A stretch of 64,000 nucleotides of DNA from assembly GCA_021783135.1 (NCBI GenBank), contig JAJXUE010000008.1, positions 1 through 64,000 on the forward strand. Direction: 5' to 3'. Each line of letters starts with the position of its first letter. Position 1 is the stretch's first letter. Source of the stretch: Bacillota bacterium (GTDB lineage: Bacteria > Bacillota > Desulfitobacteriia > Desulfitobacteriales > JAJXUE01). Below are positions 48,241 through 62,262 of the stretch, in pieces. Under the pieces are notes generated by a model, which had not been told where the DNA came from, searched no databases, and saw only the letters and a program-made list of their open reading frames with translations. A program made the position numbers and the translations under genes.

Positions 48241-48708
48241 TTGGCAGACCTTGACCGTAAAGTAATGCGGCTAATGCAAAAAGTAGAGAAGGTTTTAGTG
48301 CGCATGGTAGTGCTCGGTGTTGTCGGTCTGCTGCTAATTCAACTGGTTTTAGCGCGGGCTAAGGACCCGGTTGATTTCTACCTGGCCTTTGCCCAAACGA
48401 TTGAGACAATACCCTTAGAGGGCACGAACGCGCAGTGGGAACCCAATTTGGAACTAACCGCACTCGGTGGGGACGCGTCGCGTTTAAAGGTATTGGTGAA
48501 TGAACGTGAAGTCGGCACGCTCAATAACGGTAAATTAAGCCTTAAAATACAGGCTGGGGATCGCCTTGCGGTGGATGCACGGTTGGTAGCACCGTCTGTG
48601 CGGCTCACCGTTACCGCAATCGGCCAAGACCTTGCCTATCCCAAGCTCAACCAAGTATGGCCGTTGCGCCCCGCACTACTTGATTTAGGTCAGGTCAAGC
48701 ATAAGTAA
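48241..48708 (+). CDS. Hypothetical membrane-anchored protein
   Basis: N-terminal TM; 155 aa. Confidence 0.65.
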   Translation: MADLDRKVMRLMQKVEKVLVRMVVLGVVGLLLIQLVLARAKDPVDFYLAFAQTIETIPLEGTNAQWEPNLELTALGGDASRLKVLVNEREVGTLNNGKLSLKIQAGDRLAVDARLVAPSVRLTVTAIGQDLAYPKLNQVWPLRPALLDLGQVKHK

Positions 48709-48746
48709 TTCTGCTTGCATCTTGTACTCTTACATACTACAATGAC

Positions 48747-48858
48747 TATAATCAACGGTAGAATGGTAGGATGGAAAGAGCATGATTGTTGCAGGTGGCG
48801 GGGATTACCCTTGCTCACCTGATAATTAGCCTTGAAGCACCCGCCATGGGTGCTTTTT
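48747..48858 (+). promoter_or_regulatory. hutP leader: promoter -10, GGTAG repeats, mutually exclusive antiterminator/terminator
   Basis: TATAAT 48747-48752; GGTAGAATGGTAGGATGG 48757-48774; AGGTG/CACCT stem; TGGCGGG (48796-48802)/CCCGCCA (48840-48846) versus AGCACCC/GGGTGCT-TTTT terminator (48836-48858). Confidence 0.7.
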
Positions 48859-48885
48859 GAGCTTTAAACTCCGGAGGTTTTAGCT

Positions 48886-49308
48886 ATGAATCTTGGCAGC
48901 AAAAAAGTTGCGATGGTGGCCTTGCGTATGGCCTTAAGTGAATCAAGGGAAGAAGAATCACATTTAAAAGAACATTTTGCCAAAAGCGGGATTAAAACTG
49001 CAGGGGTAGATTATGGGGGTGAATTTGTTCCCTCCGTGCGCAAAATTGTCGAGAGGGCTGTAGTCGCAGCCAAACGTGAGGGAGTAATTCAAGAAACACA
49101 TGGCGGTGAAGGCGCTGTGGCGGGGGCGGCCCGTGAAGCTTTGAGTCAGATCATGCCTAAAGCCGTAGGACTCAATATTGGCGGGAAAATAGGCGTGGCG
49201 CGTTACCAAGAGCATCTCAGTGTGGCTGTATTTGTCGGCATTGGGCTACTGCATTTGGACGAAGTAGCCGTAGGGCTTGGTCACCGCGCCCTAGCTAAGG
49301 AGGGATAG
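48886..49308 (+). CDS. hutP: HutP-family RNA-binding antiterminator
   Basis: Alignable by eye with B. subtilis Hut[21 protein letters not shown], [14 protein letters not shown], [26 protein letters not shown]. Confidence 0.85.
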
Positions 49309-49309
49309 G

Positions 49310-49675
49310 ATGTTTGTCAGAGGAATTAGAGGAGCTACTTCGGTAACGGAGAACACCCCTGAGGCCATCAGGATTGCAACCAGGGAGCTGTTGCGTACGA
49401 TCGTGCAGGAAAATGAACTGGACCTCTCGATGCTTGTAAGTGCTATCTTCACGGTTACTAAAGATCTAAACGCCGACTTTCCGGCTTCGACTGCGCGGGA
49501 ATTGGGCTGGAATAGTGTACCCCTGATTTGCGCAACTGAGATCGATGTACCTGGGGCGATGCCTCTGGTGATCAGGGTCTTAATTCACACCAACACCACA
49601 AAGAGTCAAACTGAGATCAAGCATGTTTACCTGGGTGCGGCGGCCGGATTGCGGCGTGATTTAGCTGCACAATAA
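49310..49675 (+). CDS. aroH: Monofunctional chorismate mutase
   Basis: [17 protein letters not shown], LLxxIVQENEL, [13 protein letters not shown]. Confidence 0.95.
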
Positions 49676-49780: not shown

Positions 49781-49809
49781 TTGACATTTCCCAGTCGCAT
49801 ACATATAAT
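49781..49809 (+). promoter_or_regulatory. trp operon sigma-A-type promoter
   Basis: TTGACA - 17 bp - TATAAT. Confidence 0.9.
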
Positions 49810-49821
49810 TTAATATATATT

Positions 49822-50005
49822 TAGAGTAGTCAGAGTGTTAGGCAGTAGTTGAGCTGAGAATTAAGTATGCGATTGAGCTAAGTAAAGTTATGTTGTGTTA
49901 GTTGAGTTAGTTGAGCAAAGTTGAGCTGAGCTGAGATGAGAATGCTGCGCTGGGAACATAATTGTTCATTACCGGACCAGTACTCATTTGAGTACTGGTC
50001 TTTTT
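49822..50005 (+). promoter_or_regulatory. trp leader with NAG-triplet array (TRAP-like) and intrinsic terminator
   Basis: NAG triplets at 49899, 49904, 49908, 49913, 49918, 49923, 49928, 49933, 49938 plus a less regular upstream set (49822-49887); terminator GACCAGTACTCA-TT-TGAGTACTGGTC-TTTTT 49975-50005. Confidence 0.8.
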
Positions 50006-56645: not shown

Positions 56646-57461
56646 ATGAAAACATTGAAATACGCAAGACTTGCGGAGCATGACCACACAGTTGTGAGCG
56701 TTGGTTCTGTATTAATCGGCGGTCCTTCCATTCCTGTCATGGCCGGTCCTTGTGCTGTGGAAAGCAGGGAACAGCTGTTATCAGTCGCCATCAGTCTGAA
56801 AGATTTAGGCGCATCGTTGCTGCGCGGCGGTGCGTTCAAACCGCGCACATCACCGTATGCGTTTCGGGGTCTGGCCGAAGAAGGCCTTAAGATGTTGGCG
56901 GAAGCCAGGGAACTTACCGGCTTGCCGATTGTCACCGAAGTGATGGATGCCAGAGACGTAGAACTCGTTGCCCGCTATGCTGATATGCTGCAAATCGGCA
57001 GCCGCAATATGCAGAATTTTACTTTGCTGCAGGCAGTGGGAGATGTCGCTAAGCCTGTTTTACTCAAACGTGGTTTGTCCGCAACGCTCGAAGAATGGCT
57101 AATGGCTGCGGAATATATTTTGGCTACCGGTAATCCGCAAGTGGTATTGTGTGAACGCGGTATTCGCACCTTTGAGACTTGGACGCGAAATACCGTCGAT
57201 ATCACGGCGATTCCGGCAGTGAAGGAACTGTCGCATCTGCCGATTATCCTTGACCCCAGTCACGGCACAGGCCGCTGGAAGATGGTTGCGCCGGTAGCCA
57301 AGGCCGCAATTGCCGCAGGAGCGGATGGTTTACTGATTGAAGTTCACCCTGACCCTGACTGTGCTTTAAGTGATGGTCCGCAATCCTTAACACCGGAGAA
57401 CTTTCACACCCTGATGCAGGAACTAAAACCGTTGGCGAAGGCAGTCGGCCGTATCATCTAG
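56646..57461 (+). CDS. aroF: DAHP synthase, type I-beta core without N-terminal regulatory domain
   Basis: [44 protein letters not shown]. Confidence 0.95.
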
Positions 57462-57485: not shown

Positions 57486-57648
57486 TTGTCAGCCGCATAT
57501 AACTATGGTATTATCTAACTTAATTATTGGTAGGTAGGGGCTTGGCCCACGGTAGAATGGTAGTATGGATTTTGGAGTTAAAAACTTATGTAGGATGGTA
57601 GTACGGTAGGGACAGGTGAGATTTTAGGGCGCCCTTATACCGGGGCGT
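57486..57648 (+). promoter_or_regulatory. hisC operon promoter and leader with GGTAG repeats and terminator
   Basis: TTGTCA(57486)-17-TATTAT(57509); GGTAG at 57529, 57551, 57559, 57597, 57605 (TAG also 57535, 57591); terminator GGCGCCC-TTATACCG-GGGCGTC-TTTATTT. Confidence 0.7.
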
Positions 57649-57681
57649 CTTTATTTATAGGCAAAAAGAGGAGGAAAGGCT

Positions 57682-58773
57682 GTGCTAAGTAAGGTAAGAC
57701 CGAGTGTCGAGAACCTGGCAGTTTATGTACCGGGCAAACCGATTGAAGAGGTCCAGCGCGAACTTGGTTTGACGCAGGTCATCAAGTTGGCTTCCAATGA
57801 AAACCCGTGGGGCCCGTCACCCCGGGCTTTGCAAGCGATAAGTAAGGCGTTAAGTGAAATCTATCTTTACCCTGATGCCAATGCCCAGGACTTAAAAGAG
57901 TCGCTGGGAAGTGAACTCGCAGTTGATGCCAATCAAATCATTATTGGTAATGGCTCGGAAGAAATTGTGCAAATGATTGCCAAAACCTTCGTCGATCCAG
58001 GCGATGAGGTCGTTATGGCAGCGCCCAGTTTTCCACGCTATCAAACTGTCACCGAGATGATGGCGGGTATATCGCGAGAGGTAATGCTGGTCGATTACCG
58101 CCACGACTTATTGACGATGGCGCAGCAAATCACGTCGCGCACCAAAGTGATTTTTGTTTGCAACCCCAATAATCCGACAGGTACCATTGTAACTGAAACG
58201 GAGCTAGATGAATTTATGCGCCAGGTTCCGGCGGATATTCTCGTAGTATTTGATGAAGCCTACTATGAGTATGTTGCAGATCCAAGCTTCGTCAGCGGGC
58301 TTAAATATCTTAAGGACGGACGGCGCGTTTTGATTCTGCGTACCTTTTCCAAAGCATATGGGCTGGCTGGCCTGCGCTTAGGATATGGCATCGGCGATGC
58401 CGCTGTTATCGACATGTTGAATCGGGTGCGTGAACCATTTAACGGTAATCTGTTGGCTCAAGTTGCCGCTCAGGCTGCTTGGCTGGATAAAGAGCATTTG
58501 CAACAGGTGCTGCAAAACACTGCCGCCGGACTGCAACAGCTGACGCAAGGCCTGGCACGTTTAGGACTGCAGGCGATACCTTCGCATACCAACTTTTTCC
58601 TTGTAGATGTCGGCCAGCCCAGCCCAGAAGTGTTCCAGGCTTTGCTTAGGCAAGGAATCATTATCCGACCGGGACATCTCTTTGGCTATGCTAACGCAAT
58701 TCGGGTTACGGTTGGCACAACAGAGCAAAACCAAGCCTTTTTGCAGGCTTTAACCGGCATTTTGCGACGCTAA
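57682..58773 (+). CDS. hisC: Histidinol-phosphate aminotransferase
   Basis: KLASNENPWGPSP, CNPNNPTGT, DEAYYEY, RTFSKAYGLAGLRLGY. Confidence 0.96.
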   Translation: MLSKVRPSVENLAVYVPGKPIEEVQRELGLTQVIKLASNENPWGPSPRALQAISKALSEIYLYPDANAQDLKESLGSELAVDANQIIIGNGSEEIVQMIAKTFVDPGDEVVMAAPSFPRYQTVTEMMAGISREVMLVDYRHDLLTMAQQITSRTKVIFVCNPNNPTGTIVTETELDEFMRQVPADILVVFDEAYYEYVADPSFVSGLKYLKDGRRVLILRTFSKAYGLAGLRLGYGIGDAAVIDMLNRVREPFNGNLLAQVAAQAAWLDKEHLQQVLQNTAAGLQQLTQGLARLGLQAIPSHTNFFLVDVGQPSPEVFQALLRQGIIIRPGHLFGYANAIRVTVGTTEQNQAFLQALTGILRR

Positions 58774-58848: not shown

Positions 58849-59865
58849 ATGATTATTGTCATGCAGCACGGGGCTACCCCGGAACAAATTGCGGAGGTAA
58901 CCGATCGCTTAGAGCAAGACGGTTTCAAAATTCACCTTTCGGAAGGGGTAGAAAAGACAATTATCGGCGCTGTCGGAGACAAGTCGCGTCTTGACGCTAT
59001 GTCCCTGGAAGCATACCCGGCAGTGGAAAAGGTCATTCCAGTACTCAAGCCATATAAACTGGCGGGACGCGAATTTCACCCGCATGATACTGTAATTAAT
59101 GTAGGAAATTTGACAATTGGCGGGGATACCCTTCAGGTTATGGCAGGCCCGTGTGCAGTTGAGAGTAGAGACCAGATTTTGCAGACCGCCCGGGCGGTAA
59201 AGGCCGCAGGCGCTACAATTTTACGCGGGGGAGCCTTCAAACCACGCACTTCACCTTATGCTTTCCAAGGGCTAGAGGAAGAAGGGCTCAAACTTTTGGC
59301 CGAAGCGCGGGAAGAGACCGGTCTTTTGATCATAACGGAAGTTGTCGATCCCCGCGATGTAACCTTGGTGGCCTCGTATGCAGATATTTTGCAAATTGGT
59401 GCGCGAAATATGCAGAATTTCTTGCTCTTGCGCGAGGTAGCCAAACTCAGTAAGCCTGTAATGCTGAAACGAGGACCTTCCGCCACCTTTGAAGAGTGGA
59501 TTATGGCCGCTGAATATATCATGGCCGGCGGTAACTATGATGTCATGTTCTGTGAGCGCGGTATTCGCACGTTTGAAAACTATACCCGTAATACGCTTGA
59601 TCTAAGTGCAGTGCCTGTCTTAAAAAGCTTGTCACACCTTCCGGTCGTAGTTGACCCGAGTCATGGAACTGGTCGCTGGGATTTGGTGCAACCGATGTCG
59701 CGTGCGGCGGTAGCAGCCGGGGCAGACGCTTTGATCATCGAAGTGCATCCGGAACCGGCCAAAGCTATGTCCGACGGACCCCAATCCCTCACCCCAGATA
59801 ATTTTACGAGCCTCATGGCTGACTTGCGTCAGATTGTCCAAGTCACCGGCCGAAGCTTGGCCTAG
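58849..59865 (+). CDS. aroF: DAHP synthase, type I-beta with N-terminal ferredoxin-like regulatory domain
   Basis: N-terminal [33 protein letters not shown]...; catalytic core as in 56646-57461. Confidence 0.96.
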
Positions 59866-59875
59866 GGGGTTGCGG

Positions 59876-60961
59876 GTGGAAATCAAGCGTGTAACCATTG
59901 TTGGCTTGGGTTTGATTGGGGGCTCATTAGGCCGGGCGATGGTCAAATTAGGCTATGACGTGACAGCAGTCGATCAAGATCAGGCTGCTTTGGATAAAGG
60001 TGTTGCACTTGGTGCTGCCTGCCGCGGAACTCGGGATTTGGCGGACGGGATCACCAACGCCCAACTAATTTTTCTAGCAGTACCGGTGGGGTCCGCCGTA
60101 GATATTCTACGCCAGATGACCGACTTCTTGCCGCCTGATATCATTGTAACTGACGTCGGCAGTGTAAAATCCGAAATTGTGCATTTAGCCGAGGAACTGG
60201 TCGATGGGCAAGTCAATTTCGTGGGTGGTCACCCTATGGCGGGGACCGAACACAGCGGGATTGATGGAGCGGACCCACTGTTATTTGTTAATGCCTACTA
60301 CGTCTTAACACCCGGTGCCAAATGTTCCGGCTCGGCGGTAGAAGTTGTAGCGGACATTGTCCGCAAGCTGGGGGCGTTTCCGGTCATTATGGATGCCTTA
60401 ATTCACGATCGGGCTGTAGCGACGCTCAGCCACTTGCCGCACTTGTTGGCCGTAGCCTTGGCCCAGACGGCCGGAACTTTGGAGCTTAAACAGCCGGGCA
60501 GTATTAAATTGGCGGCAGGCAGCTTTCGCGACGGCACCAGAGTAGTCGCCAGCAGCCCAGTGATGTGGCAAGATATTTGTGTGGCCAACCAACCAATGAT
60601 TTTGGAAGCGCTGCAAACCTTTCGCCACACACTAGCGGAATTAGAACGGGCCGTTGTGGCTAAGGACGGCGCAGCCATCGCTAACGCATTTATCGCCGCC
60701 GGTAAGGTTAAGCAGACTTCAACCCATAAGTTTGGGGAGGAAATTGCGGAGCTCGCAGTGAGTATTCCTGATGCCCCCGGTGCTTTGGGCCAATTGGCTC
60801 AAGCCTTAGGCTGCGCCGGCATTAATATAGTCGGCATTGAAATTTTGCACAGCCGTGAAGGGTTGCCTGGCAGCGTAGTGTTGAGCTTTCAAGATAAAGA
60901 TACAGCTGATGCGGCCTCGACTGTCATCAACTCCCTTCATATTCCGGTACAAGCTAGGTAA
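59876..60961 (+). CDS. tyrA: Prephenate dehydrogenase with C-terminal ACT domain
   Basis: GTG near 59876; [33 protein letters not shown]. Confidence 0.95.
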
Positions 60962-60972
60962 AGGAGCAGGTT

Positions 60973-62262
60973 ATGGATATTGTAATCAACCCCGCGGCAA
61001 AACTGTCCGGCCAATTGAGTGTTCCCGGCGATAAGTCAATTTCGCACCGAGCCGTGATGCTGGGCGCTTTAGCCGAAGGAGTTACCGAAATCGAAGGGTT
61101 CTTACCGGGGGCAGACTGTCTGAGTACTGTGGCCTGTGTGCGACAATTGGGCATAACAATTGACAATATCGGCCCGGAACACCTAAGGGTATATGGTCAG
61201 GGGCTACACGGTTTGCAGGAACCGGAGGACGTGCTTAACGTAGGTAATTCAGGTACCACGCTGCGCTTATTGTTAGGCATACTGGCCGGCCAAAATTTCG
61301 TCAGCATGTTAACCGGTGATAGTACAATCCGGCGGCGACCGATGGCTCGGATTACGGTTCCCCTGCAGCAGATGGGAGCGACGATTGTCGGGCGGGAGCG
61401 GGGTAAATTGGCCCCGTTAGCCGTCAACGGCGGCAATTTGCACGCCATCAACTATGTAAGTCCGGTGGCGAGTGCTCAGGTTAAAAGCGGCATCTTGCTC
61501 GCCGGCTTATATGCTGAAGGTGTTACCAGTGTCCAAGAACCCTATGTCTCGCGGGATCATACTGAAAGGATGCTGCGTGCTTTCGGAGCCAATGTCGTAA
61601 GCGAAGCTAATACGGTAAGTGTTTATCCCGGACGAATGCTGAAGGGACAAAAGGTGCAAGTGCCAGGAGATATTTCCTCTGCGGCATTCTTTTTGGTTGC
61701 CGGTTCAATCATCGGGCAAGGTGAAATTTGTGTGCAAAATGTGGGGGTTAATCCAACGCGTGACGGCATTATAACAGCACTCAGGGCTATGGGGGCGGAC
61801 ATCCGGCTTACCAACGAGCGAGAAGTTTCCGGCGAAAAACTGGCCGATTTGGTGGTCACACCAGCTGCATTACGCGGCATTCAAATCGGTGGGGAATTAA
61901 TCCCACGGCTCATTGACGAAATTCCGATTTTAGCTGTCGCGGCAGCCTTGGCGCAGGGGACCACCGAGATTCGCGATGCAGCAGAACTTAAAGTCAAAGA
62001 AACCAACCGGATTGCGGCAGTGGCTAGGGAGTTGGCCAAATTTGGGGTTAACGTTGAGGAACTCCCGGACGGCATGCGGATTCACGGGGGGAGCAAATTG
62101 CACGGAGCAGAGGTCGATACCTATGGGGACCATCGCATGGCCATGGCGATGAGCATCGCCGCCTTAGCTGCGAGTGGAAGCTCACTTATCAAGGCTGCAG
62201 ATGTCGCCGATGTATCCTTTCCCGGGTTTTACCGTTGTCTTGCCGATTTGCAGCAAAACTAA
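60973..62262 (+). CDS. aroA: EPSP synthase
   Basis: [37 protein letters not shown]. Confidence 0.98.

Follow-up and report, generated by a model that had tools for sequence, protein, structure and literature searches.

A HutP-family protein and NAG-repeat leaders suggest a candidate RNA regulon for aromatic amino acids

The hutP-aroH leader

The DNA analyzed here, a 64,000-nucleotide stretch of a Bacillota genome that we call the window, carries a hutP gene that is followed by aroH, and both lie downstream of a structured leader. The features of this region are as follows.

48715-48743, + strand: likely hutP promoter, TTGCAT-17-TACAAT, partly common to the nearest relative (locus L003)
48747-48752, + strand: TATAAT, assigned as the -10 element in a preliminary description; present in the window, absent from L003, and probably not a -10 element
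48757-48774, + strand: NAG-repeat motif of the hutP-aroH leader, GGTAGAATGGTAGGATGG, a proposed HutP-binding cluster; exact match to the motif that is conserved across 19 families in the leaders of hutP and of aromatic genes
48792-48821, + strand: stem-loop between motif and terminator in the minimum-energy fold; equivalent hairpin in loci L003 and L004
48834-48857, + strand: predicted intrinsic terminator of the hutP leader, AAGCACCC-GCCAT-GGGTGCTT followed by T; conserved in L003 and L004
48886-49308, + strand: hutP, aromatic-type subfamily, 140 amino acids; Pfam HutP 5e-49, Z 17.2 to structure 1vea
49310-49675, + strand: aroH, chorismate mutase (TIGR01796), cotranscribed with hutP

The order hutP then aroH recurs in 64 of 80 relatives' loci. 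The nearest recognized upstream neighbor of hutP in 33 of the 80 is a 155-amino-acid protein, encoded in the window at 48241-48708, for which no Pfam match was found.

The leader elements named in the preliminary description (TATAAT, GGTAGAATGGTAGGATGG, AGGTG at 48793 with CACCT at 48816, TGGCGGG, CCCGCCA, and the terminator) are all located where it placed them. The TTGCAT-17-TACAAT promoter is the likelier one because its region, including CATCTT and CATACTACAAT, is partly shared with L003, whereas the TATAAT at 48747 is not. The -35 box agrees with the consensus at three of six positions, too few for a promoter scan to have picked it up. Given this promoter, the RNA more likely begins near 48750, and the GGTAG repeats, which are present but had been assigned to the very 5' end, would lie about 7 nucleotides inside the transcript. 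Folding of the leader, which had been suggested as a check, gives a strong structure: from 48750 the RNA folds better than 200 of 200 shuffled sequences (z -3.6), and from 48757 the z value is -2.6.

The preliminary description also proposed that this leader is a self-contained hutP attenuator with histidine as effector, in which TGGCGGG (48796-48802) pairs with CCCGCCA (48840-48846). The two segments are indeed exactly complementary over 7 nucleotides. However, the best structure that includes this hairpin reaches -27.2 kcal/mol, compared to -41.7 kcal/mol for the best fold, a gap of 14.5 kcal/mol, and the pairing was looked for in L003 and L004 and is kept in neither. We therefore reject it as a working switch.

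A HutP subfamily lacking the histidine ligands

The protein encoded at 48886-49308 belongs to the HutP family by its match to Pfam PF09021 (166 bits, cut-off 25). A search of NCBIfam matched no model, the HutP equivalog NF002838 included, and a HutP profile search against PDB sequences matched no HutP chain. Its similarity to a known structure came from comparison of folds: the AlphaFold (AF2) model has a pLDDT of 93 and aligns with B. subtilis HutP (1vea) over 127 residues, with a Z score of 17.2 and 24% sequence identity. Residues H73, H77, and H138 of B. subtilis HutP, which we take to be the Mg2+ and L-histidine ligands, correspond to G, G, and L, respectively, both in the window protein and in its relatives. 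The window HutP has the HutP fold without these three ligands and represents a distinct subfamily.

A related genome of the same family (G001) carries two HutP proteins, one of the aromatic type and one of the canonical type whose gene adjoins hutH (L085, G001:C59). The hutH-linked copy keeps all three histidines and passes the NF002838 model (167, cut-off 155). No close relatives of the hut-linked HutP were found in viral contigs. In the genome of the window, hutP is present as a single copy, a search for hutH (histidine ammonia-lyase) found none, and the neighbors of hutP are aroH and the trp genes. This agrees with the preliminary description, which had placed the gene away from hut catabolic genes.

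The loss of the histidine and metal ligands and the absence of hutH also argue against the self-contained attenuator as a whole, which we consider the least probable of the alternatives discussed here despite its exact complementarity. Likewise, the replacement of the three histidines and the biosynthetic nature of the targets described below make it doubtful that the B. subtilis model, an antiterminator activated by histidine, applies here. Because the regulated genes are biosynthetic, end-product repression is likelier.

A second NAG-repeat leader, and a TRAP-type leader between the two

The motif, GGYAGNAYGGYAGNAYGG, consists of NAG triplets with an 8-nucleotide period, and three units of the repeat can be written as RNA as (UAGNNNNN)3. 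When up to two mismatches are allowed, the window holds three matches compared to 0.19 expected. Two leaders downstream of hutP-aroH are relevant, one with the motif and one of a different type.

49781-50001, + strand: trp operon promoter (TTGACA-17-TATAAT), TRAP-type (G/T)AG leader and terminator; separate regulator
57486-57514, + strand: promoter of the hisC-aroF-tyrA-aroA operon, TTGTCA-17-TATTAT
57551-57568, + strand: NAG cluster I of the hisC leader, GGTAGAATGGTAGTATGG
57589-57610, + strand: NAG cluster II of the hisC leader, TGTAGGATGGTAGTACGGTAGG, with three NAG triplets, 20 nucleotides past cluster I
57626-57651, + strand: terminator of the hisC leader
57682-58773, + strand: hisC-type aminotransferase (TIGR01141, 355 bits)
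58849-59865, + strand: aroF, DAHP synthase with ferredoxin-like domain (PF00793 and PF18152)
59885-60961, + strand: tyrA, prephenate dehydrogenase family; prephenate dehydrogenase models matched below their cut-offs
60973-62262, + strand: aroA, EPSP synthase (TIGR01356)

Two NAG clusters separated by 20 nucleotides have been described as the target of B. subtilis HutP (PMC7430163), and the hisC leader, with clusters at 57551 and 57589, has the same two-cluster arrangement. The window encodes two DAHP synthases. One is short, without the N-terminal ferredoxin-like domain, and lies at the end of the trp operon (56646-57461), and the other is the domain-bearing enzyme of the hisC-tyrA operon (58849-59865). 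This pair suggests separate control of the Trp side and the Tyr/Phe side of the pathway.

TRAP-regulated leaders contain about 11 (G/U)AG triplets with spacers of 2-3 nucleotides. The HutP-type motif, with its 5-nucleotide spacers, differs from this pattern, and the trp leader (49822-49940) fits it better: it holds 17 (G/T)AG triplets, nine of them neighboring at 5-6 nucleotides compared to 0.7 in shuffled sequences, downstream of a perfect promoter. The genome also encodes TRAP (mtrB, G000:C4:80798). Judged by its (G/T)AG leader, the trp operon should be controlled by TRAP. The gene cluster contains TRAP-type and HutP-type leaders next to one another.

A scan of the window with Rfam found no T-box and no other family. 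Among 20 sampled motif loci the sole Rfam match was one T-box, at L195, where the T-box leader (L195:1699-1979) lies 3' of a leader with motif and terminator.

Distribution of the motif among genomes

Thirty-eight genomes with hutP were scanned with one mismatch allowed, and 80 flanks were then read. Leaders of hutP carry the motif in Desulfosporosinus, in Thermincola-like lineages, and in others. The combination first described for the window, in which GGTAG repeats containing NAG and a terminator precede the gene of a HutP-family protein, is conserved in orthologous hutP leaders. The 38-genome scan placed the motif ahead of DAHP synthase genes in several lineages, among them Moorella, Desulfosporosinus, and Desulfofundulus. 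It also occurs in hutP genomes before hisC, aroE, aroK, and genes for TrpX-like ABC, Peripla_BP_6, SSF, and DctP transporters. The term "self-contained" in the preliminary description is not supported for a motif that also precedes aroF, hisC, aroE, aroK, and transporter genes.

Because a reversed-pattern control of the one-mismatch scan also gave many matches, our statistics rest on exact matches in 299 genomes of the phylum. HutP is encoded in 196 of these genomes and the exact motif is present in 41. Linkage of the motif to aromatic, uptake, or hutP genes, or in one case to a phenylacetate-CoA ligase gene, was found in 34 of the 196 genomes with hutP and in none of the 103 without it (p=3e-7, with genomes of one family not independent of each other). 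The 34 genomes span 19 families. Counted by place, linkage was seen at 37 of 39 judged places in genomes with hutP (the exceptions are L205 and L216, and two places at contig ends were left out) and at none of six in genomes without. At the screened places all matched genes lie on the strand of the motif, even when reverse-strand reading frames are included.

The exact motif is absent from 161 of the 196 genomes with hutP, and for these genomes one has to assume that the sites have diverged or are missing. Moreover, some hutP leaders (L225, L226, and that of Moorella) are without the motif or without a terminator. At L220 (G275:C60), the exact motif and a terminator precede the phenylacetate-CoA ligase gene, and from this locus aromatic amino acid degradation may belong to the regulon.

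The motif might instead be bound by another factor such as TRAP, with hutP merely a fellow target. TRAP is widespread in this genome set, with matches in 152 of 299, and NAG-like triplets are among the sequences that it binds (PMC7430163). However, its spacers of 2-3 nucleotides differ from the 5 nucleotides of the motif, and genomes with TRAP but without hutP, for example G145, G173, and G062, have no linked motif. Conversely, four genomes (G080, G089, G245, and G275) carry linked motifs without a TRAP match, and so TRAP cannot explain the association. We consider binding by such a factor quite improbable.

Leader architecture and the direction of control

In a set of 65 leaders the repeats extend past the 18-nucleotide pattern used in the search. 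A third NAG follows at the next 8-nucleotide step in 39 of the 65, and the 60 nucleotides upstream of the motif contain 29 NAG pairs spaced 8 nucleotides apart compared to 8.4 expected; both features lay outside the searched pattern. A terminator is located 3' of the motif in at least 53 of the 65 leaders, commonly at 15-60 nucleotides. The automatic terminator search missed some real ones, including that of hutP in the window, due to over-extended stems.

For many aroF leaders, base pairing is possible between the final repeat, YAGGRG, and CUCC(U) on the 5' arm of the terminator. Complementarity between the motif region and this arm is no better than in dinucleotide shuffles (mean z -0.35), and since this duplex test is not significant overall, an antiterminator is weakly supported. 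When the motif is blocked, predicted terminator formation rises by 0.44 on average, compared to 0.13 for other blocks of equal size, across the 25 leaders that had something to gain. The terminator is the default predicted fold in both window leaders, and the switch is therefore visible solely during synthesis of the hutP RNA, where, shortly before the 3' arm is transcribed, the motif transiently pairs with about half of the terminator 5' arm. At seven loci of the Desulfosporosinus type (L133, L142, L163, L165, L167, L169, and L173), an NAG cluster with the 8-nucleotide period covers the start codon (ATGGTTAGAATGGTAGG) of a Peripla_BP_6 gene, an arrangement hinting at translational control.

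We consider it probable, with some reservation, that the hutP-aroH leader belongs to a larger set of targets, an RNA regulon for aromatic amino acids run by the distinct HutP subfamily. We infer that HutP itself binds the motif and that its ligand is tyrosine and/or phenylalanine. The protein would bind NAG clusters (GGYAGNAYGGYAGNAYGG and the like, typically two) in the 5' leaders of aromatic synthesis and uptake genes, its own leader included. Tyrosine and/or phenylalanine is the most likely effector because tryptophan is covered by TRAP. When bound, HutP would cover the repeats and keep them from pairing with the 5' terminator arm further downstream. The terminator could then form, and the operon would be off while the amino acid is plentiful. 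A second cluster over the start codon would, in some leaders, block translation instead.

In this model binding promotes termination, as with TRAP and opposite to B. subtilis HutP, a direction to which the present data lend weak support. The same protein and motif could act with the opposite sign, where termination is the default and HutP, active under starvation or when unliganded, opens the operons by antitermination. The default terminator fold of both window leaders is consistent with this possibility, as is the finding that B. subtilis HutP prevents terminator formation (PMC7430163). In contrast, the motif is located upstream of the terminator rather than within it and overlaps the region that pairs with the terminator 5' arm, a blocked motif favors the terminator in most leaders able to switch, and the start-codon clusters fit repression. 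Antitermination therefore appears unlikely to us. The motif-blocking result, the nascent pairing, the start-codon clusters, and the biosynthetic targets lead us tentatively to favor end-product repression.

Relation to known systems

The proposed system resembles HutP and the hut operon of B. subtilis in protein fold, in NAG triplets arranged in two clusters, and in the presence of a leader terminator. It differs in that hutH is absent, the three histidine/Mg2+ ligands are replaced, the repeats have an 8-nucleotide period with GG flanks, the targets are aromatic synthesis and uptake genes, and the sign of regulation is probably opposite. Its proposed logic would be analogous to that of TRAP (MtrB), where triplet repeats are captured by an oligomer carrying its amino acid, with a terminator as the result, and which can also act on translation. 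However, the proteins are unrelated, the spacing is 5 rather than 2-3 nucleotides, and two short clusters in leaders of Tyr/Phe-branch genes replace 11 repeats. T-box leaders for Tyr, Phe, and Trp in Firmicutes control the same gene set at leader terminators, but the window contains no Rfam family and one T-box was the sole Rfam match in the 20 sampled motif loci.

To our knowledge, HutP is known as a histidine-specific antiterminator of one operon in Bacillus. We found no report of a clostridial HutP regulon, or of any HutP regulon outside hut, in the open-access literature, whose coverage is incomplete. What is new here would be a HutP-fold RNA regulator with new targets and probably also with a new ligand and an opposite sign.

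Implications

Control of aromatic amino acid synthesis and uptake appears to be a new role that a HutP relative has taken on in many anaerobes. The broader proposal is that HutP paralogues from 19 or more bacterial families constitute a general Tyr/Phe-sensing RNA attenuation system, with a multi-operon aromatic regulon, 8-nucleotide NAG repeats, and termination accompanied at some genes by a translation block, as a second TRAP-like solution derived from a histidine antiterminator. We give this proposal equal weight for and against.

If it is true, many of the surveyed HutP-family proteins run a multi-operon aromatic RNA regulon in anaerobes such as Moorella and Desulfosporosinus. This would provide a testable function for a common but unassigned regulator and would add another evolutionary path to control of the TRAP type. 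The motif could then be used to predict transporters of aromatic amino acids.
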